From Lignipirellula cremea (GTDB lineage Bacteria; Planctomycetota; Planctomycetia; Pirellulales; Pirellulaceae), in assembly GCF_007751035.1 (NCBI RefSeq), contig NZ_CP036433.1, positions 496,001 through 560,000 of the forward strand: 64,000 nucleotides of DNA, in the 5' to 3' direction. Positions 9,973 through 35,730 of the stretch are shown here, piece by piece; within the stretch, counting starts at the first letter, position 1, and every line of letters begins with the position of its first letter. A model generated the notes under the pieces. The model searched no databases. It was not told where the DNA came from and saw only the letters and a list, made by a program, of their open reading frames with translations. Position numbers and translations under genes: made by a program.

Positions 9973-10955
9973 TTACGCCGCCCTTCGCTCAAACGATTTT
10001 ACCAAACCGCCGACGTACGACTTCACTTCGATCTGGTCCATCTTCAGCTTCTCCACCTCTTCCGGTTCTTCCCGGACTGGCGGCAGATGGTCGCTTTCCA
10101 TGTGAGCACGGCGAGTATTGTAATGGCTCGTAAACTCGGCAGTCAGGTAGTACAAATGCCGCTTGCCGGACACGATGAACCTGTTCAAGCACTGCAGCTT
10201 GATCGTTTCGATAAACCGCTCGCATCTGTCGTTGAGGTTGGGGCTCGCTTTGGGCAAGGGATTGGTCCTCAGCCCGCGTTCTTTGAGCTAGGACGTGAAC
10301 TCCTTGGTGAACTTCGTATCCAGGTCGTGCATGACGATGTCGGGTTTTTTGTCCCGGCCCGCTGTCTGATCGACGAAACAATCCGCTTGCTTCTCGACCC
10401 ACTCGGAGTTGGGATGCAGCGTCGATTCGGAAACGATCACTTCCCTCGTCGTCATGCACAGCCAGACGAGCACAAACATCTGTCGCAAGCCGGTTGCCGT
10501 GACCGAGTTGACGGAGAAAAAGTCGACGGCCCCAAGCGTCTCGGCGTGCCGGTGGTCTTGGCGATTTCGATCACCAGCTCGCGGATCTCTTTCGGCTTGC
10601 GCTGCCCGCCTTTGGGATTCTCAGTCTTCGGCTTGCCGCACTTCTCGTCGCGCTCCCAGCGGTAGAACGTCGCCGGCGAGACGAGCGTGATCAGTTCTTC
10701 GATGGCTTTGCCCAACGTGAGCAGCCGCTCCCGCTCCGCTGGCTAGGTGTGGATTTGCCCGGGAATCCGAGATCGCAGGATCTTGTTTTCCTCTTTTAGA
10801 AATTCGACATCCTTTGCCAGCTCGCTGTCGGTCGCGGAGGCGATGAGGGCCAGCAGAGGGTGGAAAATCTTGGCAGTCATGCTATGGTCATATTCTCTAA
10901 TCTGGGACGGGATTACACATTCGTTGTACAGGAGTACGTCCTCGATTTCGACCAA
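9973..10955 (-). pseudogene. Degenerate DDE integrase-core transposase
   Basis: Pieces of one rve-type transposase lie in different minus-strand frames, in gene order: MTAKIFHPLLALIASATDSE (near 10880), a helix-turn-helix part with SPATFYRWERDEK, then MFVLVWLCMTTREVIVSEST...IVMHDLDTKF (Asp region) and KASPNLNDRCERFIETIKLQ...YYLTAEFTSHYNTRRAH (Glu region). An in-frame stop near 10743 and frame changes near 10288 and 10480 break it. A second, shorter copy is at 41070-41550. No terminal inverted repeats were recognised. Confidence 0.82.
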
Positions 10956-11049
10956 GAAAGCGGCCCCAGAAACCGGCTTTTCAGAAGCGGGTTTTTGCGA
11001 CCGTTAGAGCCGGGAAAGTCAGCCAGATTAGTGCCTTGAAGAACCAACC

Positions 11050-12156: not shown

Positions 12157-12280
12157 CCCGTAATCGTCCTCTCGGGAGTGCCGAGCCGCGCTCATTCTTC
12201 TTCGATAGCAGTTCGCGATCGTGGGCCTCAGGCCGCCCAAAATCTCTACGGAAGATTACGGAGGAACGGCCCGATTACGG

Positions 12281-12410
12281 CTCCTGTACGCAAAGAATGC
12301 ATGGTTTCGCAACGCTTTGCAAAAGTGGCCGACACTTCGTAAACGAAGGAATCAACGCTACTTGAGACCGTTATTCGACTTTTGTTGCTGGCGGCTACGG
12401 AACCGAAGGC
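12281..12410. repeat. 130-bp dispersed repeat, copy 1
   Basis: Aligns without gaps to 43217-43346; by hand count 111 of 130 positions agree (about 85%). The most conserved blocks are CGCAACGCTTTGCAA, GTGGCCGACACTTCGTAAAC and CTGGCGGCTACGGAACCG. The minus strand is open in both copies and encodes similar residues (for example VYEVSAT, AKRCE, HSLR), so it may be an old coding fragment. It sits in the otherwise gene-free gap between the phosphoesterase and the tetR gene. Confidence 0.8.
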
Positions 12411-12458
12411 TGCTGCGCAGACTCGATCAAAAGGAAAGGAAATTCCGTCATGCCGAAC

Positions 12459-12486
12459 TTGACAAATACAGACAGGTCTGTACATT
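12459..12486 (+). promoter_or_regulatory. tetR promoter with embedded operator
   Basis: TTGACA at 12459-12464 and TACATT at 12481-12486 (16-base spacer) form a sigma-70-like promoter. Between and over them lies the palindrome TACAGACAGGTCTGTA (12467-12482), 7-base arms around a 2-base centre. A start about 7 bases past the -10 element falls on the ATG at 12493, so the tetR message is probably leaderless. A bound repressor would block polymerase: autoregulation. Confidence 0.65.
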
Positions 12487-12492
12487 GTAGTC

Positions 12493-13086
12493 ATGAGCAA
12501 GAAACGAACCAGGAAGACGGACGCCCGACAGCGGATGGTGGAGACAGCCGAGCGACTGTTCTACGCCGAGGGAATTCGGGCCGTAGGCATTGACCGCATC
12601 ATTGCCGAGGCGGAAGTCGCCAAAATGACGCTCTACAACCACTTTTCCTCCAAGGACGACTTGATTCTAGCGGTTCTCAAGTACCGGGAAGAGAAGTTCG
12701 ACAGCCTCTTCGAGAAGTGGATGGAACGGCACATCAAGGCAGGCATGGATCGCCTGGAAGCGTTCTTTGCGGCGCTCAAGGATTGGTTTGAAAGCCCCGG
12801 CTTTCGGGGCTGCATGTTCATCAACGCCTGTGTCGAGTTGGCGGACGCAGGGCACGAAGGCTCGCAGTTCTCTGCCCAGCATAAGGAACGATTCCATACA
12901 ATGTTGAGAGAGATCATTGACGAAACCGCTGGAGCAAAGGTAGCGGAAACGACAGCACCCGCCGTCTCACTCTTGGTCGAAGGAGCAATAGTGACCGCCG
13001 TGATGGAGCAGTCTTCGAAACCGGCTGACTTGGCGAGGGATGCTGCGCTGGCCCTCGTTTCAAAAACGTCGAGGAAGCGCAGGTAG
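12493..13086 (+). CDS. TetR family transcriptional repressor
   Basis: 197 residues. N-terminal TetR helix-turn-helix: RQRMVETAERLFYAEGIRAVGIDRIIAEAEVAKMTLYNHFSSKDDLI (about 14-60). The C-terminal part is the all-helical ligand-binding domain (FRGCMFINACVELAD, VSLLVEGAIVTAVM). Near-identical palindromes precede this gene (12467-12482) and the next gene (13112-13127), so it should repress both itself and the isochorismatase-azoreductase operon. The ligand is probably a toxic electrophile or quinone-like compound, judged only from the enzymes in the operon. Confidence 0.92.
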   Translation: MSKKRTRKTDARQRMVETAERLFYAEGIRAVGIDRIIAEAEVAKMTLYNHFSSKDDLILAVLKYREEKFDSLFEKWMERHIKAGMDRLEAFFAALKDWFESPGFRGCMFINACVELADAGHEGSQFSAQHKERFHTMLREIIDETAGAKVAETTAPAVSLLVEGAIVTAVMEQSSKPADLARDAALALVSKTSRKRR

Positions 13087-13111
13087 CTTTCTCTTTTTTT
13101 ACCCATTCCTA

Positions 13112-13127
13112 TACAGACCTGTCTGTA
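13112..13127 (+). promoter_or_regulatory. Second TetR operator
   Basis: TACAGACCTGTCTGTA has the same TACAGAC/GTCTGTA arms as the site before tetR, with the centre inverted (CT instead of AG). It is 18 bases before the isochorismatase ATG, so a bound protein would cover the promoter or the ribosome-loading region. Confidence 0.7.
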
Positions 13128-13145
13128 TTTATCAGGAGGATGGAA

Positions 13146-13889
13146 ATGTCGCAATCGACGCCAATCAATGCTGACCAACCCGCCATCGTTTACGGTTCTG
13201 GCCGCAAGCCGGACGCCGCCATCCCCCGCCCCGGTTTGGACCTTCGCAGGGGGCGTGTCGCCGTCGTCGTCACCGATCCGCAGATCGACTTTCTGAGTCC
13301 GCAGGGGGTCAGTTGGTCGGTCGTAGGCCAAAACGTAACGGACAACAACACCGTCGAAAACATTGGCAAATTGTTCGCCGCATCCAAGGACAGCGACGTG
13401 CCATTGTTCATTAGCCCCCACTACTACTACCCCCACGATCACAAGTGGCGGTTCGAGGGAGCGCTCGAACGGTTGATGCACGACATCCAGATGTTTGACC
13501 GGCCAGGTGCGCTTGATCTTAACGGATTCGAGGGATCGGGAGCCGATTGGTTGGAGCAGTACAAGCCATTCATCAACGATGGGGAGACGGTCGTTACCAG
13601 CCCGCACAAGGTTTACGGTCCTGAATCCAATGACCTGACTCTTCAACTCCGCAAACGAGGGATTGAGCAAGTCGTCCTTGCCGGGATGTCAGCCAATCTG
13701 TGCGTCGAATCTCACTTGCGTGAACTCTTGGAACAAGGCTTCGAAGTCGCCGTCGTCGGTGACGCCACCGCAGCCGCACAGATTCCTGGCTACGACGGGT
13801 ACGAAGCGGCAATCACCAACTTTCGCTTTCTCGCCAGCGACTTGTGGAGTACCGGCGAAGCCATCGAGCGACTGGCCCAACGCCCGTAA
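13146..13889 (+). CDS. Isochorismatase/cysteine hydrolase family protein
   Basis: About 247 residues with the alpha/beta cysteine-hydrolase triad: Asp in VVVTDPQIDFLSP, Lys in TSPHKVYGPES and Cys in GMSANLCVESHLRELLEQGF. Such enzymes hydrolyse isochorismate, nicotinamide-like amides or N-carbamoyl compounds; substrate cannot be assigned. Two ATGs occur, at 13140 and 13146; the AGGAGG at 13134-13139 sits 6 bases from the second, so 13146 is chosen. First gene of the operon behind the operator at 13112; the azoreductase begins 25 bases later. Confidence 0.9.
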   Translation: MSQSTPINADQPAIVYGSGRKPDAAIPRPGLDLRRGRVAVVVTDPQIDFLSPQGVSWSVVGQNVTDNNTVENIGKLFAASKDSDVPLFISPHYYYPHDHKWRFEGALERLMHDIQMFDRPGALDLNGFEGSGADWLEQYKPFINDGETVVTSPHKVYGPESNDLTLQLRKRGIEQVVLAGMSANLCVESHLRELLEQGFEVAVVGDATAAAQIPGYDGYEAAITNFRFLASDLWSTGEAIERLAQRP

Positions 13890-13914
13890 TCAGCATCTAC
13901 CAAAGGAGACGACG

Positions 13915-14316
13915 ATGATAAATCTGCTACACCTTGACGCCAGTCCACGAGGCGAGCGGTCGCACACACGACGCCTCACCGCCGAATTCGTTGGGGAGTG
14001 GCGGAAAGCCTATCCGCTTGATGCCGTCACCTACCGAGACATCGGACGAAACCCGATTCCTCATGTCACGGAGGATTGGATTGCTGGTGCATTTACGCCA
14101 TCGGAAAGACGCACAGGTAGCATGAGAGCCGCCCTTCGCCTCAGTGACGAATTGGTTGACGAGTTTCTCACGGCTGACCTCATCGTGGCGGGGATTCCAT
14201 TTTACAACTTCGGAATGCCCAGCGGATTCAAAGCGTACATCGACCAGATCGTTCGAGTGGGTCGCACCTTCTCGTTCAACCCTGACAACAAAAAGGCCCC
14301 GTTTCAACCTTTGTAA
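13915..14316 (+). pseudogene. NADH-dependent FMN azoreductase, 5' part (cut by IS66)
   Basis: Begins at an ATG with AAAGGAG upstream. Residues match flavodoxin-fold azoreductases: INLLHLDASPRGERSHTRRL (phosphate/FMN loop), FLTADLIVAGIPFYNFGMPS and GFKAYIDQIVRVGRTFSFNP. The family reduces quinones and azo dyes using NAD(P)H. At 14312 an IS66 element interrupts the gene and the frame ends at a stop inside the element. Removing the element and one target copy joins this piece in frame to 15831-16089 and restores a 218-residue protein, the normal family length. Confidence 0.9.
14305..14312 (+). repeat. IS66 target-site duplication, left
   Basis: CAACCTTT directly before the element; the same 8 bases follow it at 15823-15830. 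Eight bases is the usual IS66 duplication. Confidence 0.88.
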
Positions 14317-15822
14317 CCCTTCAGCCTTCTGAAATCGCTCTTGGCTGATTTCGACAAATTCGTTCTGTTTTGGGGATCATGGACGCTTCCCTTTCTAACG
14401 ACGATGGCCTGGTGGACGCCGCCTTTTTGGAGAAGGTGCTGCGTGGGCGGTTGAGTGAGGCTGAGGCTCGAACGTTTGCTGCGGCCGGGGCCGAGATTAT
14501 CGCCTTTACCATGCTGGCGCTTACGCAGCGGGTCGCTGGTCAGCAGGCGGCCGGGCCGAACACGCCGTCGGCCGCCGTTCCGCCGTACGCCAAGCCGACC
14601 GCTTCGCCCAGGAAAGGTCAGCGGCGACGCGGCGGACAAAAAGGACATCCCGGCGTCACCCGACCGCCGCTTCCTGAGCCGGATCGGCGCCGCGAACTCC
14701 AACTCGATTGTTGCCCTGAGTGCCAGGGCAAGCTGCAGCGAACAGGCGACACTCGCACTCGCCGCAGCGAAGACATTCCCGACGGCCTCAAGCCGGTCAT
14801 TACGGAAGACATCCTGCATCGCGACTATTGCCCGACCTGCAAAAAACGCGTCGAGCCCAAGCCGCCCGACGTCCTGCCGAACTGCACGCTCGGCAATCGC
14901 ACGCTGGTCCTGTCGGCCGTGCTCCATTACCTGCAGGGACTGACGATCAGCCAGATTGTCGACACCTTCAACTTCCATCTGCGAATGAAGGTCACGCCGG
15001 GCGGGCTCATGCAGATGTGGCATCGGCTGGCGACTCTGCTGTTCGCCTGGTACGTGCAGATTCAAGCCGAATGTCTCGACTCGGCCCGGCTCAACGCCGA
15101 CGAAACCGGCTGGCGAGTGCAAGGCAAGACGCATTGGCTGTGGTGCTTCGCCGGGCCGGATGCGACTTTCTATATGATCGATCGCAGTCGCGGTTCGCCG
15201 GCGTTACAAAAGTTTTTTACCAAAGCCTTCGAAGGCGTCCTCATTACCGACTTCTGGTCGCCGTACGATGCGATCGTCTGCGCCGACAAACAGAAGTGCT
15301 GGCCGCACCTGCTGCGCGACATGGCGAACGTCGACGAAAAACACGCCGGTGACAAGGTCTGGCAGTCGTTCGCGCGGCGAGTGATCAGCGTCTATCGCGA
15401 AGCGAAGAAACTGCACGCCGCCAAGGCGACAACGGTTGCGGTCGACTACGACATCGCCGCGATGCGTTTAGAAAGCCGACTGGCGACCATCGCCGGCGAA
15501 GCCTGGAACCACCCCGACGCGGCCCGCCTCGCCAAACGCCTGGCGAAGTACGGCGACCAGCTGCTGACCTTTTTATGGCACGACGACATCCCCTCGGACA
15601 ACAACCACGGCGAGCGTCAGATTCGTCCGGCGGTGATGATCCGCAAGAACAGTTACGGCAACCACAGCGACCGCGGCATGCTCACCCAATCGGTACTGAT
15701 GACGATCTTCCGCACCCTCAAACTGCGAAATCAACAACCGCTCGAAACGATCCTCGAAGCCCTCGCGAACTACGCAAAAACCGGAAAAATCCCGCCCCTG
15801 CCGCAGAAGGCTGAATAGTTAC
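14313..15822 (+). mobile_element. Complete IS66-family insertion sequence (1510 bp)
   Basis: Bounded by 19-base inverted repeats: GTAACCCTTCAGCCTTCTG at 14313-14331 and the complement of GTAACTATTCAGCCTTCTG at 15804-15822 (two mismatches). Flanked by the 8-base direct repeat CAACCTTT. It carries one transposase gene and no tnpA/tnpB accessory genes, as in the ISBst12-like subgroup. Intact ends, intact gene and exact duplication indicate recent insertion. It lies in the same direction as the operon it disrupts, so readthrough to the genes behind is possible. Confidence 0.93.
14379..15818 (+). CDS. IS66 transposase (TnpC-like)
   Basis: About 479 residues. In order: N-terminal helical region (LEKVLRGRLSEAEARTFAAA), a Pro/basic linker, a zinc-finger domain (CCPECQGK at about 111 and YCPTCKKR at about 147), then the DDE catalytic domain: NADETGW, VLITDFWSPYDAI and SDNNHGERQIRPAVMIRKNS (Glu). 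All acidic catalytic positions are present. ATG at 14379 is preferred to a TTG at 14370. The stop codon lies inside the right inverted repeat. Probably active. Confidence 0.95.
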   Translation: MDASLSNDDGLVDAAFLEKVLRGRLSEAEARTFAAAGAEIIAFTMLALTQRVAGQQAAGPNTPSAAVPPYAKPTASPRKGQRRRGGQKGHPGVTRPPLPEPDRRRELQLDCCPECQGKLQRTGDTRTRRSEDIPDGLKPVITEDILHRDYCPTCKKRVEPKPPDVLPNCTLGNRTLVLSAVLHYLQGLTISQIVDTFNFHLRMKVTPGGLMQMWHRLATLLFAWYVQIQAECLDSARLNADETGWRVQGKTHWLWCFAGPDATFYMIDRSRGSPALQKFFTKAFEGVLITDFWSPYDAIVCADKQKCWPHLLRDMANVDEKHAGDKVWQSFARRVISVYREAKKLHAAKATTVAVDYDIAAMRLESRLATIAGEAWNHPDAARLAKRLAKYGDQLLTFLWHDDIPSDNNHGERQIRPAVMIRKNSYGNHSDRGMLTQSVLMTIFRTLKLRNQQPLETILEALANYAKTGKIPPLPQKAE

Positions 15823-15830
15823 CAACCTTT
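15823..15830 (+). repeat. IS66 target-site duplication, right
   Basis: CAACCTTT, identical to 14305-14312. Confidence 0.88.
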
Positions 15831-16089
15831 GACCTTCGGAAAGCGACTGATTGCCGTCGTTTCTCGTGGTGACGGGGGCTACGGACCCGGAGGGAGAAAT
15901 GAAACACACAATCATCTCGATCCGCATTTACGAACGGCTTTCGACTTCATTGGCGTGTCGGATGTGACCATCGTGGCTGTCGAGAACGACGAACATGGCG
16001 GAACAGCCTTGGCGGAATCGCTGACCGCCGCCCGTGAGACACTTAGCAAGTTTGTAGGCTCGACCAGGTTGACGCCTTGTCTCGCTTGA
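15823..16089 (+). pseudogene. Azoreductase, 3' part (cut by IS66)
   Basis: Continues the azoreductase: TFGKRLIAVVSRGDGGYGPG, NHLDPHLRTAFDFIGVSDV and TIVAVENDEHGGTALAESL, the conserved C-terminal half that completes the FMN site (SRGG-type loop, here SRGDGG). It has no start or ribosome site of its own. No other lesion is visible, so the insertion is the only damage. Confidence 0.88.
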
Positions 16090-16143
16090 CGAGGCAGGCC
16101 GACGATCCCGTTCCATTCTTTGTTCTTTCCGAAAGAAGCTGCA

Positions 16144-16668
16144 ATGAAAAACAAAGCCACTTTTTCGCCGGCTGTCCCGTCTGTATCGCCGCCGAACAAA
16201 CCGTCGCCAACATCCATCCGACCACCCTTCACATTGGAATCCGCCATCGCCAAGGTTCGTGCCGCCGAAGATGCGTGGAACAGCCGTGACCCGCATCGAG
16301 TCTCGCTGGCCTACTCGGAAGACTCGCAGTGGAGAAACCGCAGCCAGTTCATCCGTGGCCGTGAGCAAATTCGAGAGTTCCTGACTGGCAAGTGGGAAAA
16401 GGAACTTGACTATCGGCTCACCAAGTCGCTCTGGAGCTTTACGGAGAATCGGATCGCCGTCCGCTTCCAGTACGAATACCACCACGCCGAGGGACAGTGG
16501 TTCCGAGCTTACGGCAACGAGCTTTGGGAATTCGACGATGAGGGTCTGATGCGGCGTCGAGAGGCCAGCATCAACGATGTTGCCATTGAGGAAGAGCAGC
16601 GCAAGTTCCATTGGTCGGCGCCCGGCCCAAGACCGCAAGATGACGCTGGCATTCCCGATGTCGCCTGA
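16144..16668 (+). CDS. NTF2-like protein (DUF1348)
   Basis: About 174 residues. After a Pro/Ser-rich start of about 30 residues comes a SnoaL/NTF2-like cone fold of the DUF1348 type: [74 protein letters not shown] and [17 protein letters not shown]. Members are single-domain binding proteins or small enzymes of unknown reaction. It begins 54 bp after the azoreductase end and belongs to the same transcription unit. The ribosome site is weak. Confidence 0.85.
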
Positions 16669-16708
16669 ACTGACAATTCAATCCACTCCACCGTAAAGGA
16701 ATCAGGAA

Positions 16709-17323
16709 ATGCACGAATACCCTAGCGACATCGCCTTCACGCCTGCCGTCAAAGCGATCCAAACGGCGAAGGGTTCTCGCGCTTCTTACGGCAAGATGGA
16801 GGAGCGAGGAAGTTGGCAAACGACCGTCACGCCTGAGCTTGAAGCGTTCCTTGCCGATCTGGATATGTTCTACCTCGGCACGGCCAACGGCCAAGCTCAG
16901 CCCTACATCCAATACCGGGGTGGTGCGCCCGGCTTCCTGAAAGCCATCGACGAGAAGACTCTGGGCTTCGCTGACTTCGGTGGCAACCAGCAGTACATCA
17001 GCTTGGGAAATCTATCGGAGAATCCCAAGGCGTTCATTTTCCTCATGGACTACGTGCATAGCCGTCGCATCAAGCTCTGGGGCAAGGCGAGGGTCGTCGA
17101 GGGAGATGCTCAACTGGAGAACAGACTTCGTGACCCGGAATACCCCGGCAAAGTTGAACGAGTCGTTCTCTTCGAGATTGAAGCATGGGACATCAACTGT
17201 CCGCAGCATATCCACAAACGGTTTCCGCAGCGGGAAGTTACTCCAGTCGTCGAGCAGCTTCACCAGCGAGTGCATGAACCCGAAGCACAACTGGCGACGT
17301 TGCGGCAGACCAATACGCTCTGA
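16709..17323 (+). CDS. Pyridoxamine 5'-phosphate oxidase-like FMN protein
   Basis: 204 residues with the split-barrel flavin-binding fold: FLADLDMFYLGTANGQAQPYIQYRGG, TLGFADFGGNQQYISLGNL, KAFIFLMDYVHSRRIKLWG and KARVVEGDAQL. The end, INCPQHIHKRF, is typical of general PNPOx-like proteins found beside oxidoreductases. Probably an FMN- or F420-dependent reductase of small electrophiles rather than the PLP enzyme PdxH. A helical tail after HKRFP may dimerise. An AAAGGAA-type ribosome site precedes the ATG. Fourth gene of the TetR operon. Confidence 0.87.
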   Translation: MHEYPSDIAFTPAVKAIQTAKGSRASYGKMEERGSWQTTVTPELEAFLADLDMFYLGTANGQAQPYIQYRGGAPGFLKAIDEKTLGFADFGGNQQYISLGNLSENPKAFIFLMDYVHSRRIKLWGKARVVEGDAQLENRLRDPEYPGKVERVVLFEIEAWDINCPQHIHKRFPQREVTPVVEQLHQRVHEPEAQLATLRQTNTL

Positions 17324-17422
17324 CGGCAAATCAAAGACTTTGATTTTGCGAAGTAAGAAATCCGTGCCTTACGGCGTCCAACAGTAACGACCCCCAATTA
17401 TTTTCATCACAAGGAGAACAAG

Positions 17423-17968
17423 ATGCCTCGAATTCAACCTGTCAATCGAACCACGGCTGACTCGAAGACCGCCAATCTACTCGGATCGGTCGAGAAAAAA
17501 ATGGGCCAAGTACCGAACATCATCGCTACGATGGCGACCTCCCCTGCCGTCGCCCAGGCATATCTCGGATTCAGCCAGTCGCTCTCCACCGGCCAGCTTC
17601 CCGCTCGCTTGCGGGAGCAGATTGCGTTGGTCGTGGGCGAGACGAACAACTGCGAATACTGCTTGGCAGCGCACACGGCGCTGGGCAAAGGAGCCGGTTT
17701 GACCGAAGGAGAAACCTGCGATGCCCGCCGTGCGGAAGCTAAAGATGACAAGGAACGAGCCGCTCTCCGGTTCGCTCGCACGATTGTCAACGAGCGTGGC
17801 CGGGTTTCCGACGAGGATGTTCAGGCCGTGCGACAAGCCGGCTACGACGACGGCGAGATCGCTGAGATTGTGGCGAATGTCGCTCTCAACATCTTCACCA
17901 ACTACTTCAATCATGTGGCAGGCACGGAAGTCGATTTTCCCGTCGCCCCAGAACTGACAGCAGCGTAA
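17423..17968 (+). CDS. Carboxymuconolactone decarboxylase / AhpD-like protein
   Basis: 181 residues, all-helical CMD fold: KMGQVPNIIATMATSPAVAQAYLGFSQ, LPARLREQIALVVGETNNC, then the redox motif CEYCLAAH (CxxC followed by the proton-relay His, about residues 75-82) and IVANVALNIFTNYFNHVAGTEVDFP. This is the peroxidase-related AhpD type, which uses the cysteine pair to reduce peroxides. An AAGGAG precedes the ATG. Last gene of the operon; the terminator starts 13 bases after the stop. Confidence 0.9.
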   Translation: MPRIQPVNRTTADSKTANLLGSVEKKMGQVPNIIATMATSPAVAQAYLGFSQSLSTGQLPARLREQIALVVGETNNCEYCLAAHTALGKGAGLTEGETCDARRAEAKDDKERAALRFARTIVNERGRVSDEDVQAVRQAGYDDGEIAEIVANVALNIFTNYFNHVAGTEVDFPVAPELTAA

Positions 17969-17980
17969 TCAGGCAGACAA

Positions 17981-18010
17981 GCACCCGGTCGGCATAAGCC
18001 GACCGGGTGC
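17981..18010 (+). terminator. Hairpin terminator of the TetR operon
   Basis: GCACCCGGTCGGC and GCCGACCGGGTGC form a perfect 13-base stem around ATAA. Only a short ATTTGC follows, so the U-tract is poor, but the stem is very strong and separates the operon from the sigma factor gene. Confidence 0.8.
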
Positions 18011-18049
18011 ATTTGCGATTGGTGTCCAAGGAGTCCAGCAGCCAACACC

Positions 18050-18661
18050 ATGAGCCAAGACAAAGAACCACTCTATGCGGCCTTGTTGCACGGCGACGAC
18101 CAACGGGACTCGGCTCTTTCCGAGTTGCGAGTGGTTCTCGTGCGCCATCTTCGCAAGGCATTGTCGAGTTACGCTCGTGCCGACGATCCATTTCTGGAAG
18201 ACGCCGTACAAGATTCACTCTTGCGAATTCTTGAGCGGCTCGATCAGTTTGAAGGCCGCAGTCGGTTTGTCACTTGGGCGACGACCATCGCAATACATGT
18301 CGCCATGTCGGAACTTCGACGATCTCGCTGGCGGGATGTGTCGCTCGACCAGGTGGTTGACGAAACATCGCCGCTTTCTCGGTTTGCGACCGATGATAGC
18401 TCGGGACCCGGCAACCAGGTAGAACGAAATACAATTCTTGAGAAGATGCAGGAAGTTATCGACACCCAACTCACGGAGAAGCAGCGAACGGCAATATTGG
18501 CCGAGATGAATGGGATGCCGCAGGAAGAAATTGCCCGGCAACTTGGGAGCAATCGAAACGCCGTTTATAAGCTGACGCACGACGCCCGCAAGAAGCTGAA
18601 GCAAGGGTTGGAGGCGACCGGATATGGCGCCGACGACATTCGTGCCGCCTTTGCCAAATAA
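18050..18661 (+). CDS. ECF-type sigma-70 factor
   Basis: 203 residues. Region 2 is at about 40-95 (DDPFLEDAVQDSLLRILERL, FEGRSRFVTWATTIAIHVAM) and region 4 at about 135-190 (LTEKQRTAILAEMNGMPQEE, IARQLGSNRNAVYKLTHDAR). Promoter target unknown. The following gene, 10 bases on, encodes a small zinc-finger protein, the usual anti-sigma arrangement. It lies directly behind the redox operon terminator and could take part in oxidative stress response, which is inference from position. Confidence 0.92.
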   Translation: MSQDKEPLYAALLHGDDQRDSALSELRVVLVRHLRKALSSYARADDPFLEDAVQDSLLRILERLDQFEGRSRFVTWATTIAIHVAMSELRRSRWRDVSLDQVVDETSPLSRFATDDSSGPGNQVERNTILEKMQEVIDTQLTEKQRTAILAEMNGMPQEEIARQLGSNRNAVYKLTHDARKKLKQGLEATGYGADDIRAAFAK

Positions 18662-18671
18662 GGACCGAACC

Positions 18672-18926
18672 ATGCCACTTTCCAATATAGAACTAGAAGC
18701 CTTGCTGCGGCTCGTCGGCCTCACCAATGACAAAGAGATCAACTGCGAGCAGTGTCTTGCGCTGGTCGCTGAGTTTGCCGAACTCGAACTGGCTGGGAAC
18801 TCGGTGCCAGAGGGCCTCAAGATGGTCGAGCAACATCTGTCTGTTTGCTCGGAGTGCCGGGAAGAGTACGAGGCTTTGCAACGGGTGTTGGGTGACCTGA
18901 ACAACGAACCGGGTAATTCGACGTAA
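18672..18926 (+). CDS. Putative zinc-finger anti-sigma factor
   Basis: 84 residues. INCEQCLALVAEFAE and VEQHLSVCSECREEY give the H-x3-C-x2-C pattern of zf-HC2 anti-sigma domains, with an N-terminal Cys pair in place of the usual first ligands. No membrane segment, so it would be a soluble regulator binding the sigma factor encoded just upstream. ATG at 18672 follows the sigma stop by 10 bases. Confidence 0.8.
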   Translation: MPLSNIELEALLRLVGLTNDKEINCEQCLALVAEFAELELAGNSVPEGLKMVEQHLSVCSECREEYEALQRVLGDLNNEPGNST

Positions 18927-19138
18927 GACCCGACCGCCCCACAGCGTTTCACAGGAAACGGTTATTTCCAGAACCACTCTTGTAAACGCCAGCCCAAAAG
19001 TGCAGCGCTTGGCAGGTGAAAAGTGTAGCGCTCGGGATGAAAGAAATCTGGGCTTAGGTTAGTCTCGGGATAGAGAGGGCGTCAAGCCAACCGTCCCTCC
19101 TCTGGAGGAGCGACGGATTGTGGCGATTGTCGCCGTCG

Positions 19139-19261
19139 TTAGGTTTGCGACGGTTTTGATGAGCGACGACGCCTGGCATCCTGCAGGCGGTAGCTCGCGC
19201 CGCCGGCCTCCAGGATGTGACAGCGATGGGGCAGTCGGTCCAGCGCAGCGCCGGTCAGGCG
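19139..19261 (-). pseudogene. IstB (IS21 ATPase) C-terminal fragment
   Basis: The minus strand reads RLTGAALDRLPHRCHILEAG then GASYRLQDAR before a stop, which matches the conserved end of IS21 IstB proteins (LTGALLDRLTHHCHILE...SYR). No Walker motifs or upstream part are present. A remnant of about 40 codons. Confidence 0.7.
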
Positions 19262-19294
19262 TTCGCTGCCTGCGGGCGATGGCGTGAATCGCCT

Positions 19295-19612
19295 TCACTT
19301 GCGACGCTGCGAGGCATAGCCGTTTTCGTGGTGGCCGTTGCCGTTGGCATGATCCGCGTGACCGTTTGACGGCGGATACGGGCCGTTGACTTGACCGTTG
19401 CTGTGACCATTGGAAGCCTGGGCGTTGCCTTCCAGTTCTTCATCGACCGACGCGCGGGCCATGCGGAAGAGTTGCCGCACCCGTTCCCGCAAGGCATCGG
19501 GTTCGCTCGCCAGGCCAGCTTCGACTTCCAGTTCCAAGTGGACGCTCGGACCTCGGGAGCCGTAGTTGGCTTCGCCGATCTTTCTCGACAAGCCGACATT
19601 GAGTTTCAGCAT
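19295..19612 (-). CDS. Conserved small protein with Asn/Gly/His-rich tail
   Basis: 105 residues. The N-terminal 60 form a compact domain: MLKLNVGLSRKIGEANYGSR, PSVHLELEVEAGLASEPDAL, RERVRQLFRMARASVDEEL. The tail is low complexity, with repeats of NGH, NGQ and NGNGH, and ends basic (SQRRK). Proteins with this start are, as I recall, widespread in planctomycetes, often near mobile DNA; function unknown. A GAGG lies upstream of the ATG. The IstB fragment lies just behind the 3' end, so the tail may have been altered by insertion. Confidence 0.7.
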   Translation of the reverse strand: MLKLNVGLSRKIGEANYGSRGPSVHLELEVEAGLASEPDALRERVRQLFRMARASVDEELEGNAQASNGHSNGQVNGPYPPSNGHADHANGNGHHENGYASQRRK

Positions 19613-19707
19613 AAGAATAACCTCGTTTGATCAGGTGTCGTTTGCGGCGTAACAGGCAAGTCTTCGCCAACACCCACATCTGGGGCAGTGCGAGTTTTCG
19701 TTGGGTC

Positions 19708-20811
19708 TCACCTGGGCGACTTCGTTGCGGTATCCACCGCTTCGCGAAATTGATCGCGCAGCTTCAGGCTCTCGTGCCCTTTTGTTTTGTAATCCTGGAT
19801 TTGACAAAACAGCGCACCGGCCACACCGGTATGAGGATTACCCCAGGTCAATGTTCCCGAAGAACCGGTGTGATAAAAGGAGCCGTCCTGGTTCAAAGCC
19901 CACCCCAGTCCCCAGCCGGAAGCTTGTTCTGTCAGCATCGTTCGGACGGACTCTTGGGACAGGACTTTGCCATCGTTACGGATAAACATTTGCGTAAACT
20001 TGACCACGTCCGCCGGCGTAGAGAACAAACCTCCGTCCGGCATCGCCATCTTGATTTGCCAGGCGGGATCGAAGCGAAAGAAAACCGTGTCGTCGCGATC
20101 GTCTTCCCGTCGCACAACCTCCGCCATGCGACTTGCGACCGAACGCGGCGGCGCGAAGTAGGTGTCTCGCATTTCAAGCGGATCGAGGATTGCGGTTTGC
20201 ACAAACCGGTCATACCGCATTCCCGCGCGCAGCTCGATGATGCGCGCTAACAGGTAAGGGGCTGCGTTAGAGTACGCCACCCGCGCGCCAGGTTCGAACA
20301 ACAAACGTGTTTTTGCCAACTCGTGGACAACCTCGTCAATGTCACGGGCGTACCAGTCGGCTTCAAAAAAGAATGCGGGCCTTAACGGCGGGTTGGATTG
20401 AATCCCCGAACTGTGGCTCATTAACTGACGGATCGTGATCGGATAGTGCTTGCCACCGGGCCCAGTCTGCTTTTTGAAGTCCGGCAGGTACTTTTCGACC
20501 GGATCGTCGAGAGCCAATTGGCCGGCGTCCACCAGCTTCATGGCAGCCGCCACGGTGACCGGTTTTGTGATCGAGGCAATCCAGCAAAGCGTACGTGGGG
20601 TCATGCGTCGCTGGAGACGCGTGTCGGAATGACCGTGCGCCTCTTCTCGCAGAATTCGTCCATGCTGAGATACCAGGCCGATCGCCCCCGGCACTTTTTT
20701 GTCAGCTACTGCTGCCTTGATGACTCCGAACGCGACATCAAGATCCGTTGCCTGCCCGACACACGGCAAGCAGCCAGGCATCAGGATCAGAATCAGAATG
20801 CACCTGAACAT
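19708..20811 (-). CDS. Secreted serine hydrolase, beta-lactamase/transpeptidase fold
   Basis: 367 residues with a signal peptide (MFRCILILILMPGCLPCVG). Class C-like motifs: SITK (S-x-x-K nucleophile, in IASITKPVTVAAAMKLVDAG), AYSNAAPYLLARI (Y-x-N) and HTGSSGTLTW (in place of K-T-G). This is the PF00144 esterase/DD-peptidase family; true beta-lactamase activity is not implied. It is transcribed away from the HTTM cluster and has no operon partner. Confidence 0.9.
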   Translation of the reverse strand: MFRCILILILMPGCLPCVGQATDLDVAFGVIKAAVADKKVPGAIGLVSQHGRILREEAHGHSDTRLQRRMTPRTLCWIASITKPVTVAAAMKLVDAGQLALDDPVEKYLPDFKKQTGPGGKHYPITIRQLMSHSSGIQSNPPLRPAFFFEADWYARDIDEVVHELAKTRLLFEPGARVAYSNAAPYLLARIIELRAGMRYDRFVQTAILDPLEMRDTYFAPPRSVASRMAEVVRREDDRDDTVFFRFDPAWQIKMAMPDGGLFSTPADVVKFTQMFIRNDGKVLSQESVRTMLTEQASGWGLGWALNQDGSFYHTGSSGTLTWGNPHTGVAGALFCQIQDYKTKGHESLKLRDQFREAVDTATKSPR

Positions 20812-21214
20812 GCGAAGCCTCTCCAGACGACCGGTTCACGTAAGACGAATGCCGCATGTGCGAAGTCTAAAGGTCCCTCGTGACGTTCGCAAGGAACGTG
20901 ACAGCATGCGATTTCATTCGGCGGAAGGCTCGGCCGGACCACAAGGCACGGCCGCAGAGCGGAGTCACCTTTGGCGTCGTGCAGACGCCGCCAGATCGCT
21001 TCTGAGCGTTCGACTTCCCCTTCTCGGCAGTCGCTTCGACGGTCGCCGCCTGATCCAACTGCAACCTCGAATTCGTATCCGTTCGTTTGGCAAGTCCCTC
21101 CACTAATCAACGAAATGGAACTTTGATCCATGGGAAGTCGAAGCCCGGGCGAAGTCTCCGACCCAAAAAAACCGGGGTTTGTCTGCAGAACCGAAGGGGC
21201 GAAGATGTAGAATG
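20812..21214. other. Intergenic stretch, no supported gene
   Basis: Between the beta-lactamase-fold gene and the end of the HTTM gene, both minus strand. It must hold the hydrolase promoter. The minus strand reads RSEAIWRRLHDAKGDSALRP near 20960, which may be a decayed coding fragment, but I cannot assign it. Confidence 0.3.
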
Positions 21215-22234
21215 TCAACCGCCAATTTGCAAGAGACCAACCCGTCGGGCTGTCGTCGCCAATCGTTCGGGCGCCGTGAATTTCCCGAAAGGTCCCAGAA
21301 CCTGGTCGCCGCCGTAATATTCCTCGAGGATCAACGGCACATAGGCCGCCAGCAGATACAAGGGGAAGCCGCCTAGTTCCATGGTGATAAGAATGCCGAC
21401 GTGCATCGACACGCCAAACCATAGCGAGGCGACGCGTGTACGGCGATTCCAGACCAACAGCGGAAAAAGCGTTTCCCAGGCTAACACCGACCAGGTCGCA
21501 ATCTGGGTCAACCAAATCGGCAACTCGAGTTGTTGTGGCGAAAAACGCGTTAATGTTAGATCCTGCATCACATAATAGAGGCTGTCGCCGTGCGTCCAGC
21601 TCTCTCCGGAGAGCTTGCAAATGCCGCTCGCGGAGTACATAAAGCTGAGTTGCACCAGCAACAAACGGAGCGCCCAAGGGTGAACAAAGATTTGCGGAAC
21701 TGCGCCGAGCATTCGCCGGCGGCGCCAGGCGTCGATTGACCAGGCCGCTCCGCAGGGAGTAAGCATCAGATACATCAGCAGGATGCCGCGGATGTGATCG
21801 CCAGCGTTGATGGAATTGACGTTCAAGTTCGTGAACGAGACGGAAAGCACCCACACAACAATCGCAACGGCGCGCGTATTCCAGCCGAGCAACAGACAGA
21901 TCGTCGCGCCCATCCAGACCCACATCGCTAGCTGCAGGGCCTGGCCATCGCCGATCCCTTGCAGCAGCGACCAGTTCCAATTCGACTGTTGAAACATCCA
22001 ACTGAAGAAGTGCGGCGCGCCGGTGCTCCTTTCACCATAAAGGGCCGTCATCTGAGGAAGCATCGTCAACAGTTGGTCGAGCAACAGCACGGCGGCTACG
22101 CCAATTCGTAATGCGGCCAGCAGTTCACCGCGGACCGGCGCCGTAAACCAACGACCGCCAAGCCAGCGGGGCAGCCAGGGTTCAACGCCAACGACTTCCT
22201 TTTCTGGCGATTCTGTTTCTCGTGTGGAGCTCAT
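21215..22234 (-). CDS. HTTM domain membrane protein (VKD carboxylase-like)
   Basis: 339 residues with many membrane helices. The pattern fits HTTM, the membrane domain shared with vitamin-K-dependent gamma-carboxylase: RIGVAAVLLLDQLLTMLPQM, VWMGATICLLLGWNTRAVAI, NAGDHIRGILLMYLMLTPCG, LVQLSFMYSASGICKLSGES, WETLFPLLVWNRRTR and SMHVGILITMELGGFPL. Bacterial members act in unknown membrane reactions. Its ATG overlaps the stop of the preceding gene (22231-23067) by 4 bases, so the two are translationally coupled. Confidence 0.87.
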   Translation of the reverse strand: MSSTRETESPEKEVVGVEPWLPRWLGGRWFTAPVRGELLAALRIGVAAVLLLDQLLTMLPQMTALYGERSTGAPHFFSWMFQQSNWNWSLLQGIGDGQALQLAMWVWMGATICLLLGWNTRAVAIVVWVLSVSFTNLNVNSINAGDHIRGILLMYLMLTPCGAAWSIDAWRRRRMLGAVPQIFVHPWALRLLLVQLSFMYSASGICKLSGESWTHGDSLYYVMQDLTLTRFSPQQLELPIWLTQIATWSVLAWETLFPLLVWNRRTRVASLWFGVSMHVGILITMELGGFPLYLLAAYVPLILEEYYGGDQVLGPFGKFTAPERLATTARRVGLLQIGG

Positions 22235-23067
22235 TGGTCGGTCTCCGCGTTCGCGGCGAGTAGGTCAAACGGTTGTAAAACGAATACGTTCATCACGGGG
22301 TCGTATGCTTCCAGCGGCAGATAGTCATCGGGAGGCTCGGCGCTGGGAACCCAGCGGGCCAATGCAACACAGTACGGCGCGGCCGGGCGATCCTGTCTTT
22401 TTGCGTACGGAGCGGGAATCTCATATCCACGAACGTGAACAATGACTTCGCTGGGCGCTGGCGCGTCCGAGTGAAGGTCGAGAAAGGCTTCGACTCGTAG
22501 CGCGACCCACGCTTGCAGAATGTCGTATTCCCGCGCCAGCTTGTCCTGAATCTGTTGGCCCCAACGCGTCTGCGCGTCAAGTTCTGATTCACCGGCGCGC
22601 CAGGAGAATCCCGGCGCCAGGTTCTGCTCAATGCTCCGCAGGCGATTGCCTCCAAAGCGAAGGTAAGAGTCGGGGTTCGACGGCTCATTCTCCGACAACA
22701 ACCAGACCGACTCTTCTATGCCTTCCCAACGCAGTTCGCACGCCAGAAAACAGGATTGATCGGCCACGTTCGGTGCGAACAACGACCACCTTTGCGGCTG
22801 CTCGGTGATCTGGCCGTACTTGTCGATCAAAAAAATCAAGGACGACGCGCCGGCCAGGGCGGTCGGATTGGCGCCGCGCCGACTATCGTCGAGGGCGGCG
22901 GTGTACTTCTCTGAAATGGCGGGGAATCGATGCATTACGACCTCCAGAGTCTCCAATCCGTTGGCCAGCGTGAGATAGAAAAGTTGCCAGATGATGAACG
23001 CGCCCAGCCCGACGCCGGCAGCACGCCGGAAAACGGAACTGCGGCGATCGTTGCAGGGCGTCGCCAT
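22231..23067 (-). CDS. Membrane-anchored partner of the HTTM protein
   Basis: About 278 residues. One N-terminal membrane helix (VGLGAFIIWQLFYLTLANGL), then a soluble domain with FLIDKYGQITEQPQRWSLFAPNV, WLLSENEPSNPDSYLRFGGN and AYDPVMNVFVLQPFDLL. The phrase QRWSLFAP recalls planctomycete proteins paired with HTTM genes. The ATG at 23067 has AGGA upstream and the N-terminal region MATPCNDRR, preferred over a longer start at 23160. Function unknown; it overlaps the HTTM gene by 4 bases. Confidence 0.75.
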   Translation of the reverse strand: MATPCNDRRSSVFRRAAGVGLGAFIIWQLFYLTLANGLETLEVVMHRFPAISEKYTAALDDSRRGANPTALAGASSLIFLIDKYGQITEQPQRWSLFAPNVADQSCFLACELRWEGIEESVWLLSENEPSNPDSYLRFGGNRLRSIEQNLAPGFSWRAGESELDAQTRWGQQIQDKLAREYDILQAWVALRVEAFLDLHSDAPAPSEVIVHVRGYEIPAPYAKRQDRPAAPYCVALARWVPSAEPPDDYLPLEAYDPVMNVFVLQPFDLLAANAETDQ

Positions 23068-23116
23068 GGGATTCCTCCTTCTAAAAAGCGAACGAAAAAA
23101 AACAGCGAACAAAGAA

Positions 23117-23145
23117 AACGCCCCGCCCAGAGCAGGCGGGGCGTT
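23117..23145 (-). terminator. Rho-independent terminator of the repeat-protein gene
   Basis: AACGCCCCGCC and GGCGGGGCGTT form a perfect 11-base stem with a 7-base loop. On the minus strand it is followed by TTTTCTTTG. It lies between the proline-rich gene and the HTTM pair. Confidence 0.8.
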
Positions 23146-23172
23146 GAAAAAAGGGACCAAGGAAAACCAAGA

Positions 23173-23793
23173 CTACTTCGGAAACTTCGGCGGCTTCAGA
23201 TCACGCGGCGGGTGTACATAAGGCGCCCTGATGTCGCGGGGAAACGTCGGAGGAGTCTTTTGTCGCGGCGAAGGCTTCGACTGCGGCGGGGGAAAGCCTT
23301 GCATGCCGCCCGGCCGTCGCCACACTCCGTCGTAGTAATCCGGGTTCACCTGCGACTTGGGTCGGATCGGCGGCGTCTTGATTTTCTTGTCGTGGACAAA
23401 GTCGCGCCACGTGCTTGGAGGCGCCGAGGGCGGCGGAGCATCTTTCGCTCGCGGAGCGTTGGAAGCGCCCAGACCTTGGAATTGAGGGCCAACCTGCGAT
23501 TTGGGTCGGATCGGCGGTGTTTTGATTTTCTTGTCGTGGACATAGTCGCGCCAGGTGCTCGGAGGCGCCGAGGGCGGCGGAGCATCTTTCGCTCGCGGAG
23601 CGTTGGAACTGCCCAGACCAAACGTTCGAGAGGTCGGCCGGGGCAACATTCGGGAAGGCAGTTGTCGGGCGCCGGGATTCACCGACGCGCCGCGGCCGCC
23701 GAAAGGAAACTGCGCCGAAGCGACTTGCGTGGAAGCCGCAAACGACCCAATCAGGGTGAGAACGCCTAAGACATTGATCCATGAAAGTCTCAT
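23173..23793 (-). CDS. Secreted proline-rich protein with two 48-residue repeats
   Basis: About 206 residues. Signal peptide MRLSWINVLGVLTLIGSFAA...ASAQ; the ATG at 23793 has GGAG upstream. The body is Pro/Lys/Arg-rich and unstructured-looking, with two tandem units starting at residues 60 and 108. Each contains SNAPRAKDAPPPSAPPSTWR, a linker of D-Y/F-V, then HDKKIKTPPIRPKSQV. The tail (SKPSPRQKTPPTFPRD, PRDLKPPKFPK) is similar in style. No known domain. Probably a basic extracytoplasmic or cell-surface protein; function unknown. Confidence 0.75.
   Translation of the reverse strand: MRLSWINVLGVLTLIGSFAASTQVASAQFPFGGRGASVNPGARQLPSRMLPRPTSRTFGLGSSNAPRAKDAPPPSAPPSTWRDYVHDKKIKTPPIRPKSQVGPQFQGLGASNAPRAKDAPPPSAPPSTWRDFVHDKKIKTPPIRPKSQVNPDYYDGVWRRPGGMQGFPPPQSKPSPRQKTPPTFPRDIRAPYVHPPRDLKPPKFPK
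23329..23616 (-). repeat. In-gene tandem duplication, 144-bp unit x 2
   Basis: Two adjacent 144-bp units (23473-23616 and 23329-23472) that differ little at DNA level; the shared text CGGCGGAGCATCTTTCGCTC recurs exactly 144 bases apart. Frame is kept, which suggests a recent duplication retained by the protein. Confidence 0.85.
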
Positions 23794-24073
23794 AATATGT
23801 TTCTCCAGTGAGAGTTCTTGTTGATGACACACACAGCGTGTGTCGCCTCGCCCTAGGGATTGCCGTCGTCCGGGTGCAACCGGACAACCGTTTCAGAAAA
23901 ATGAAGATTCGAGCCTGACCGAGGGCGCAAGTCGCCGAATCGCGACCCTCGACAGCTTGGCGGCCTGCACTGGTTGTGAGACATTAAATTTTCTTGTCCG
24001 GCCGATGCCGCCTACGGCAATCTCTCCAGGGGCGCGCGTTTTCCAGGCGCCCCGCACTCGAGGAGATAATCAG

Positions 24074-24691
24074 GTGAACGAACAACTAGCATGGCCGAGC
24101 GATCAGTGGATGGCGGCGTTGGCGGCGGGCGATTCCGCGGTCCAGCAGGAATTTTGGAATCGTTACGCGGGGCCGTTACACCGCATCGCCGACCGACAGC
24201 TCTCTCAAAAACTCAAACGCCGCGTTGATCCCGAAGATGTGGTTCAATCGGCCTGTCGCACGTTCTTTCGTCGTGTAGGAGAAGGGGAATTCGACCTGGC
24301 CGATCAGAACGATGTCTGGCGGCTGATGCTCACGATCACCCTGAACAAGGCGCGCATGCAGGCCCGGTTTCATGGGCGAGATCGTCGTCGCATGGATCGC
24401 GAACAGGCCCTGCCCGAAGATCCCGGCCAAGGGATCTCTTTCTACGAAGAAGGATTAGCGGAGGTGGATTTTTCCGACTTTCTCGACGCGCTGTTGCGGC
24501 GATTGAGTGAAGAGCAGCAAGCCATCTTGAAACGCACCTTGGAAAGCCAGACGCAGGATGAAATCGCGGCAGCGATCGGCTGCAGTCAACGTACGGTACG
24601 CCGGATGCAGGGTCGCATCCGCGAACTGTTGCGCGAGATTCTTCAGCAAGACCTGGAGCTCGGAGAATCAGAATCGCCGAGTCCATCATGA
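24074..24691 (+). CDS. ECF sigma factor paired with a Ser/Thr kinase
   Basis: About 205 residues. Region 2: AVQQEFWNRYAGPLHRIADR, RRVDPEDVVQSACRTFFRRV, DVWRLMLTITLNKARMQARF. Region 4: LSEEQQAILKRTLESQTQDE, IAAAIGCSQRTVRRMQGRIR. GTG at 24074 is chosen for its GAGGAG 8 bases upstream; longer readings begin in Arg/Pro-rich non-coding-like sequence. The stop overlaps the kinase start by 4 bases. Planctomycetes commonly place such sigma factors before kinases with TPR tails; the kinase may control the factor. Confidence 0.9.
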   Translation: MNEQLAWPSDQWMAALAAGDSAVQQEFWNRYAGPLHRIADRQLSQKLKRRVDPEDVVQSACRTFFRRVGEGEFDLADQNDVWRLMLTITLNKARMQARFHGRDRRRMDREQALPEDPGQGISFYEEGLAEVDFSDFLDALLRRLSEEQQAILKRTLESQTQDEIAAAIGCSQRTVRRMQGRIRELLREILQQDLELGESESPSPS

Positions 24692-27375: not shown

Positions 27376-27485
27376 CCCCGGAAAGAGAGCGGGTCGGATT
27401 GAGACAAGTTTCCGTCGCCGACGGTCGATAAATAGATTACTCAAAAGTTTTTTAAAAACTCCGCCCCCCAACCACTCATCGATTC

Positions 27486-28787
27486 ATGGCCAGACGGATT
27501 TGGCTTTGCTGGCTCGCAGCCGCATGCATTGCGGCGGCGCCTTTGGTTGGTTCTGCGCAAGATTTCGACGAGTCACCGAGCGCCCCTGCGGAATCGCAAC
27601 GCCCCCTGGCGGTGAACCCGTTCCCCGGTTCAAGTGCTGCGTCGCTGGTAGCTGAGACCGATTTCCTCAGTCCCTTCGCCAGTTTTTTTTCTCCGGCGCG
27701 GCAAGCTTCCACAACGATTGATCTGCAGTCGTACTACCGGTCCCCTTCGCGATCGCAGTTACTCGCCGTGCCGGAGATGTTCGGCGATTACCGCCGGGCC
27801 GGGCCAACGCTGGTGATTACTCCCGCCTCGGGCTTGCTGCCGGCTCTGGCAACCGAAATCCCCGTCGGCGCCGCGATTTCCGGTTTGCGCGCGGCCGAGA
27901 ACAATCACGCATTGCCGGCCGACCGGGTTTGGGCTTCTTTTAACTATTTTTCGAACGCGTACGACGTACAAACCGACGGCAGTTTCGGACTCACGCCGAC
28001 CAGCCGTTCGCAGTCGCTGTATCGTTCGGTCATCGCTGTAGAAAAACTGCTGGATTGCGGCCAAACATCGCTGGAAGTACGCATGCCTTTTGGTTCCGCG
28101 CTCAATACAACCGGCGTCGCTGGCGCCGGTGCGAACGTCGCGGGGTTTGGGGTCGAATCCAATAGTCTGGGGAATTTGAATCTGTTGCTGAAGCGACTGA
28201 TGTATGCTGATGAGTGTCGCGCGTTTTCGGTTGGCGTGGGACTGGAACTGCCAACGGGCTCCTCTGGAGCAATTACCTACGGCGCGCTGCATGCTACTGT
28301 GGATTCCCAGGCGGTGCATGTCGTGCCGTATGCGGCCTACACGGAACGCTCTGGTCGCTGGTTCGGACATGCCTTCGCCCAACTCGATATCGCGGCCGGC
28401 AGCGACCCCTTCCAGGCGACGCTTAACGGGGCGACGCCAGAGCTTGCCGGCAAGATTGACCAACCCGTTCTGCTGGGGATGGACGCCGGTCTCGGCTACT
28501 GGTTGCTGCAGCCTTGTTGCCCGCAAGGTCGAGGCTTAGCGCTGTTGTCGGAGATTCATTCGACGCTCCCGATCCATGATGACGACGACGATTTTGTCGC
28601 CGCCGGCGCCTTGGGAACGTTTGCGATCAACTCGCCGCCGCCGGCCTACGAGGTGCTGCATCTTACGGCCGGAATACACGCCGAACTGGGCCAAGGCTGG
28701 TCGCTTCGTTCCGGCGTTGTCTTTCCCATGCGCAAGGAACGAGTGTTCGACGCCGAGTATGTGCTGCAGATCAATCGCACTCGATAG
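27486..28787 (+). CDS. Putative outer-membrane beta-barrel protein
   Basis: 433 residues with a signal peptide (MARRIWLCWLAAACIAAAPL...SAQ). The rest lacks membrane helices and alternates polar and aromatic residues as in barrel strands: RVWASFNYFSNAYDV, QTSLEVRMPFGSALN, AFSVGVGLELPTGSSG, YAAYTERSGRWFGHAFAQLD, HLTAGIHAELGQGWSLRSGV. It ends YVLQINRTR. Resembles uncharacterised planctomycete barrel proteins. It lies 110 bp behind the kinase and could be part of the same unit; the spacer contains no clear terminator. Confidence 0.65.
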   Translation: MARRIWLCWLAAACIAAAPLVGSAQDFDESPSAPAESQRPLAVNPFPGSSAASLVAETDFLSPFASFFSPARQASTTIDLQSYYRSPSRSQLLAVPEMFGDYRRAGPTLVITPASGLLPALATEIPVGAAISGLRAAENNHALPADRVWASFNYFSNAYDVQTDGSFGLTPTSRSQSLYRSVIAVEKLLDCGQTSLEVRMPFGSALNTTGVAGAGANVAGFGVESNSLGNLNLLLKRLMYADECRAFSVGVGLELPTGSSGAITYGALHATVDSQAVHVVPYAAYTERSGRWFGHAFAQLDIAAGSDPFQATLNGATPELAGKIDQPVLLGMDAGLGYWLLQPCCPQGRGLALLSEIHSTLPIHDDDDDFVAAGALGTFAINSPPPAYEVLHLTAGIHAELGQGWSLRSGVVFPMRKERVFDAEYVLQINRTR

Positions 28788-29046: not shown

Positions 29047-29057
29047 AGTTCCCAAGG

Positions 29058-31582: not shown

Positions 31583-31589
31583 TTACGCC

Positions 31590-35719: not shown

Positions 35720-35730
35720 CCCTCGCCGAC

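Follow-up and report, generated by a model that had tools for sequence, protein, structure and literature searches.

A dispersed repeat in Lignipirellula cremea that probably derives from the attachment-site arms of decayed tRNA-targeting integrative elements

Genomic islands are usually traced through an integrase and a displaced tRNA fragment. Lambda-like tyrosine integrases use arm-type sites, and in lambda itself the arms lie on both sides. In marine bacteria, tycheposons and other tRNA-carrying islands use different tRNA genes, carry parts of tRNAs, and have a tyrosine recombinase. Among the systems closest to the locus described here are the islands of the Islander collection, in which the tRNA gene and its displaced fragment mark the island ends and tandem arrays occur (PMC4383910). 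In that collection, 3760 of 3919 islands are counted as having 3' fragments and 2083 as having anticodon-centred sites (PMC4383910).

Here we analyze a pair of repeats, copies A and B, in a stretch of 64,000 nucleotides from L. cremea (the window; C1:496001-560000 of the genome), and we consider it very likely that they are decayed attachment-site arms of tRNA-targeting integrative elements lying in a low-G+C region. As in the Islander class “A,” the core falls within the anticodon loop and on the 3' side of its arm (PMC4383910). As in those islands too, the tRNA 3' half found beside the relatives of A and B would restore the gene, and in one related genome (G057) tRNA and fragment bracket an island. 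Unlike the Islander islands described there, A and B lack the tRNA 3' half and the integrase, and it is a long arm, not the fragment, that is conserved; a tDNA-fragment search that requires an integrase would therefore miss them. The arms resemble lambda-type arm sites in having short direct repeats beside a tRNA core, at helical-turn spacing and with element-specific sequence; they differ from lambda in that one conserved arm is seen here, and its binding by an integrase is predicted from sequence. The likeness to tycheposons lies in the use of various tRNA genes and the carriage of tRNA parts; the arm itself was searched for in the organism's own order and in 80 viral loci.

The original prediction, made from the letters of the window, described a gap-free 130-bp repeat of about 85% identity, and this is borne out: 12281-12410 and 43217-43346 agree at 111 of 130 positions (85.4%) with no gap. 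Within the window a longer alignment (12269-12410 with 43204-43346) is 84.6% identical over 143 columns (E 3e-38). The copies share one orientation (+/+) and are exactly two in the single-contig genome of 9,565,229 bases, where a search at E <= 10 gave 16 matches, namely, A, B, and 14 pieces of 15-21 bp with E >= 0.6. Homology of A with other genomes (aligned with G220 and G470) reaches upstream to about 12236, and the left end first given to the repeat was accordingly too short. The prediction also placed both copies in gaps before short transcription units, which holds for A, between a metallophosphoesterase gene (end 12156) and a TetR gene (start 12493), but only partly for B, whose alignment starts at the 3' end of a SMI1/KNR4-WD gene (stop codon 43211-43213). 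B is truncated, in that its first two direct repeats are missing and the end of the SMI1/KNR4-WD gene stands at their expected place. The protein encoded by this gene has no ortholog in 117 relatives at E <= 1e-30, which makes an empty-site comparison at B impossible. The features of the two copies are as follows.

12236..12410, + strand: copy A, putative near full-length attachment-site arm with a 15-bp core (arm-only profile 1.2e-7; alignment with G220 and G470)
12247..12252, + strand: direct repeat 1, TACGGA, putative arm-type integrase site, found at the corresponding position of other arms, about -71 relative to the TTGCAA anchor
12257..12262, + strand: direct repeat 2, TACGGA, 10 bp past repeat 1
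12276..12281, + strand: direct repeat 3, TACGGC, 19 bp past repeat 2
12306..12312, + strand: phased motif TTCGCAA in A, in a region conserved among arms
12316..12322, + strand: phased motif TTTGCAA in A, 10 bp past TTCGCAA, the most conserved part of the arm
12395..12409, + strand: core CTACGGAACCGAAGG in A, equal to the 3' side of the anticodon arm of the organism's own tRNA-Arg(ACG)
12411..43203, no strand: DNA between the two sites, candidate element body inside the low-G+C stretch
43204..43346, + strand: copy B, putative truncated arm with core (alignment with A; arm-only profile 2e-5)
43242..43248, + strand: phased motif TTCGCAA in B
43252..43258, + strand: phased motif TTTGCAA in B
43331..43345, + strand: core CTACGGAACCGAAGG in B

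Two further repeats were observed in the window. A 23-bp sequence at 12460-12482, near the start of the TetR gene, recurs inverted at 13112-13134, just before an isochorismatase gene, and this pair is probably a TetR operator. A near-tandem duplication of 128 bp, 94% identical, occupies 23348-23475 and 23492-23619.

Both copies terminate in CTACGGAACCGAAGG, which matches the organism's own tRNA-Arg(ACG) gene at 15 of 15 bp, on the 3' side of its anticodon arm; the gene lies at 680603-680677 on the minus strand, and ARAGORN calls it as Arg(acg). Base composition predicts about 0.02 exact occurrences of this 15-mer genome-wide; there are four in the 9.57-Mb genome, in A, in B, at 666669 (-), and in the tRNA-Arg gene at 680630 (-), and all four fall within 172 kb. 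The 666669 site and the tRNA gene lie on the same strand 14 kb apart, with an open reading frame for a PF00589 tyrosine integrase (433 aa, 678049-679350) between them, and they nearly coincide with the second-lowest G+C segment (666501-683500). C1:666669-680677 is a probable 14-kb island in tRNA-Arg(ACG), bracketed by the 15-bp core, and at the 666669 site no arm is detectable.

Upstream of the core, TAC-type repeats lie at about -71, -61, and -41 relative to the TTGCAA anchor. Among 15 tabulated arms, all three repeats, spaced by about 10 and about 20 bp, are present in 8, the inner two in 4, and the outer two in 1, with L241 having only the third position and B none; L256 was without the TTGCAA anchor in this tabulation. 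The two letters that follow TAC are equal in 25 of 52 within-arm pairs versus 110 of 851 pairs between arms, and the within-arm agreement was reached by 0 of 5000 permutations. Most of the arms show the regularly spaced direct repeats expected of integrase arm-type sites. That these repeats are alike within but different between elements suggests binding sites for some protein, most likely the integrase, that has evolved together with its element.

An RNA is a very improbable source of the conservation. On this alternative the repeat would be a small or cis-regulatory RNA, possibly with a tRNA-like 3' domain, as could be read from relatives that fuse the conserved stretch to a tRNA 3' half and from the position of the window copies ahead of genes. 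A covariance-model search of the window with Rfam at the gathering score, however, gave no match, and ARAGORN called no tRNA there. Folding was no better than that of shuffled sequences on either strand (z -1.45, -0.48, -1.14, and -0.51), and in the RNAalifold consensus of the two-sequence alignment both partners change in only 3 of 34 pairs. A DNA site bound by a protein would better explain why the direct repeats of one arm vary in concert, and a regulatory or structural RNA is not supported.

To a minus-strand protein-coding remnant, the other origin that was put forward for the repeat, we give next to no weight. The minus strand is indeed open in both copies (A, 12560-12248; B, 43349-42965), and 31 of 43 residues are identical between them. 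Nevertheless, the codon differences are 3 synonymous versus 12 nonsynonymous, which indicates no protein constraint, the frames differ outside the repeat, and relatives join the same stretch to pieces of tRNA.

Plain DNA searches gave no relatives of the repeat above chance. A search of 296 genomes of the order with B matched 1 of 296, which is the organism's own genome. A search of 241 genomes of the family with A matched 24 at E <= 0.05, and every match outside the own genome was a piece of <=33 bp. No relatives above chance were found in plasmid DNA. A 17-mer scan of genome_contigs returned 52 stretches that were set aside as chance, their similarity stopping by about 39 bp, and the similarity around a single 20-mer match in viral_contigs extends no further.

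Profile searches were more productive. A profile of the sequences of A and B found G220 (E 6.4e-6) and G470 (E 1.1e-4), each match covering most of the model. In these two genomes the conserved stretch directly joins an intact tRNA 3' half lying outside the model, with anticodon loop, variable loop, T arm, and acceptor strand. A third match, L128, lies inside an open frame and was dropped as chance. A four-sequence profile (A, B, G220, and G470, core included), run on 396 genomes of the order, matched 41 of them at E <= 0.05, with about 20 expected by chance, so that the weak matches are mostly not arms. We examined 30 matches, comprising 28 of the 30 loci returned (two already known were left out) together with L126 and L127. 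The model's 3' end is reached in 16 of the 30, and a T arm comes next in 11 of these 16 but in 0 of the 14 that stop short; the background is 55 of 12000 random 38-base windows from the same loci. Among the 11, L247 proved to be an intact tRNA, and L256 has a tRNA 3' half, with its arm unrecovered by a profile that includes L256 itself; neither it nor L259 and L251, which reach the model end and have no T arm, was counted. ARAGORN called no complete tRNA at the other T-arm matches.

Arm-only profiles, which dispense with the core, recover the same family. One built from eight loci of other genera, with A, B, G220, and G470 also left out, was run against 1.17 Mb and scored A at 1.2e-7 (508248-508378, or 12248-12378 of the window), G220 at 1.5e-7, G470 at 1.7e-6, and B at 2e-5, whereas the background went no lower than E 0.11. 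Two other versions separated the arms less well. A six-arm version (h2) gave 1e-10 for A and only 0.055 for B, and in a version made from A, B, G220, and G470 alone (h1), L237 and L243 did not stand out from the background loci, whose own selection had relied on a 17-mer of the repeat. Because resemblance to A, B, G220, and G470 had guided the initial choice of outside loci, the profile tests are in this respect not fully independent; the tRNA 3' halves and L250 (genome G052) are evidence free of that choice. L250, which is outside the 15-arm profile, scores 8.4e-9 against it, making it the best single control, and has a tRNA-Lys-like 3' half 10 bases after the arm, with no whole tRNA called. 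Altogether, supported arms are found in 13 other genomes (G220, G470, G057, G005, G042, G246, G080, G226, G313, G365, G016, G513, and G052), all scoring <=8.4e-9 and all but that of G052 inside the profile. An unbroken T arm follows the core in 10 of these 13 outside arms (9 by script and L250 by eye), a decayed one in 2 (G057 and G080), and none in 1 (G513).

In every relative whose end is readable, the repeat finishes on one side in a tRNA anticodon-arm core. This bears on the non-autonomous mobile element of the original prediction, if that is taken as a transposon or an element of the MITE type. The presence of two dispersed copies, gap-free and with unrelated flanks, would suit such an element. 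Against it, there are exactly two copies, no terminal inverted repeats or target-site duplications were seen by eye in the flanks of A and B, and the tRNA core recurs at one end of the relatives; we regard this reading as highly improbable. The prediction pointed in the right direction with a mobile element, but not in the form proposed.

The anticodons of the adjoining half genes were read by counting back from the T stem in the standard tRNA numbering. So read, most would be ACG (Arg), with CCG (Arg) in G016, TCG (Arg) in G226, CGG (Pro) in G313, and TTT (Lys) in G052. By these half-gene assignments, one and the same arm adjoins 3' halves of five tRNA types, three for Arg and one each for Pro and Lys. 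We give an even chance to the proposal that a planctomycete-type island family shares a recombination module whose constant portion is the arm, whereas the tRNA core and its 3' half are swapped and the direct repeats vary jointly within each arm.

The surroundings of the relatives indicate how such elements may be laid out. In G057, an intact tRNA-Arg(acg) at 9568-9642 is followed 9,073 bp on, on the same strand, by the arm and a decayed 3' half, a layout that places the arm at the element end far from the tRNA. The interval (L265, 9568-18687) encodes a PD-(D/E)XK nuclease, an HNH nuclease, and an 1802-aa protein with helicase and methyltransferase domains, which together look like defence cargo; no integrase was recognised within it. 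An integrase is the next long open frame past the tRNA 3' half in G365, G246, and G005, where the match is strong, while in G220, G313, and G226 the adjacent integrase is weak or fragmentary. Searches of viral_contigs and plasmids for relatives of the integrase found none. The succession of arm, core, 3' half, and then integrase is the order that stacked elements would give, with the arm closing one element and the 3' half and integrase opening the next; on this reasoning A and B would each close an element.

The base composition is likewise that of foreign DNA, as would befit an island: G+C is 58.3% between A and B (12411-43203) versus 61.9% for the surrounding 324 kb, and the lowest-G+C segment of those 324 kb (502001-559500, or 6001-63500 of the window, at 58.4%) includes both copies. 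This stretch of about 57 kb is probably island DNA.

Taking these observations together, we propose that each copy represents one half of an old attachment site, namely, about 160 bp of arm on the element side and then the crossover core in tRNA-Arg(ACG). The integrase of a live element would bind the direct repeats of the arm (TACGGA, spaced by about one and two helical turns) and the core and would recombine the element circle into the tRNA gene; the element-borne 3' half would restore the tRNA on integration, and the arm with the displaced tRNA 3' half would mark the other end of the element. Two related elements may have been stacked head to tail, such that A closes the left one and B closes an element of about 31 kb between A and B, with later losses of the integrase, of the tRNA 3' halves beside A and B, and of the distal arm of B.

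Several features of the window weigh against this explanation. No integrase relic was found in it (best tblastn E 0.038), and none of the 36 PF00589 matches of the genome falls inside it. The small open reading frame after B has no match in the other loci compared. Beyond A there is no detectable tRNA 3' half (shuffle p 0.99), and that beyond B is doubtful (shuffle p 0.05, random-window p 0.15); with the displaced fragment missing in the one case and doubtful in the other, we file A and B as remnants and not as intact sites. Lacking the integrase, the 3' halves, and, in B, the distal arm, both are probably now dead as integration sites. Fragment and tRNA have the same orientation at the 666669 site and in G057, but A and B lie on the plus strand and tRNA-Arg on the minus. 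As this is the only tRNA-Arg(ACG) seen beside the core, the explanation requires either an inversion or the loss of a tRNA copy. As a separate observation, related long genes, which we take to be DUF1552-like, flank A and B in inverted orientation at 3-1106 (+) and 57936-59342 (-), with about 75% identity over 1.07 kb, and were considered candidate inversion breakpoints.

Decayed insertion sequences (IS) accompany both copies at corresponding positions:

10057..10989, - strand: decayed IS (transposase, rve_3) upstream of A, a companion outside the arm
41104..41582, - strand: decayed relative of the same IS upstream of B, in the same orientation

These relics lie 1.3-1.6 kb inside the arm end at both A and B, with one gene between IS relic and repeat in each case. 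This common arrangement could be taken to mean that A and B are pieces of one ancient duplication comprising a decayed IS, a gene, and the 130 bp, with the tRNA 15-mer incidental. Yet the intervening genes are unrelated (metallophosphoesterase versus SMI1/KNR4-WD), nothing else aligns between the two 6-kb regions, other genomes have the arm without the IS and with tRNA 3' halves next to it, and the chance expectation for an exact 15-mer is only about 0.02 genome-wide. We therefore hold such a duplication to be unlikely, and duplication of one element bearing an attachment site would still be compatible with the arms being attachment sites. Of the two circumstances that the original prediction named as speaking against it, only two copies and a larger duplicated gene explaining both, the first is found here, but no duplicated gene contains A and B.

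The IS is IS3/IS481-like, and further pieces of it occur at C1:186322, 191628, 5495926, and 8933499. It was also considered as the owner of the repeat and rejected, since its intact relatives, of about 1.15 kb, do not contain the repeat. In G220, an intact relative of the IS ends 273 bp before a possible second core (3198135), at which no arm is detectable. At L117, the 3' end of the IS at 2061-2178 recurs at 4237-4355, beyond a complete gene, and L122 and L124 have a common 276-bp piece near IS remnants; capture of passengers by the IS is possible in these three loci.

Viral sequences provided a control for the generality of the arm. The pattern of tRNA-Arg core plus T arm occurs in at least 120 stretches of viral_contigs. 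The 80 examined (L281-L360) divide into 16 with a complete tRNA at the site and 64 with a tRNA-Arg(ACG) 3' half at which no complete tRNA was called, at least two of the latter (L298 and L335) being cut near an end. The arm is found in 0 of the 80. This tRNA end is hence a common phage attachment site, and the arm is not general to such sites. A literature search of limited coverage did not find such arms described in planctomycetes.

Copies A and B file under the known logic of anticodon-centred tDNA islands, in a decayed state, and their reading as attachment arms accounts for a dispersed repeat that would otherwise be hard to explain. Since the conserved arm persists after the integrase and the tRNA fragment are gone, it makes dead or stripped islands mappable, and its occurrence next to tRNAs of five types, with repeats differing by element, offers material for studies of how integrases change their targets. 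If the proposal of a fixed arm with exchangeable tRNA parts is true, the arm module would be a natural retargetable integration system, and the arm would serve to locate the ends of islands, including dead ends such as A and B from which tRNA fragment and integrase have been lost.
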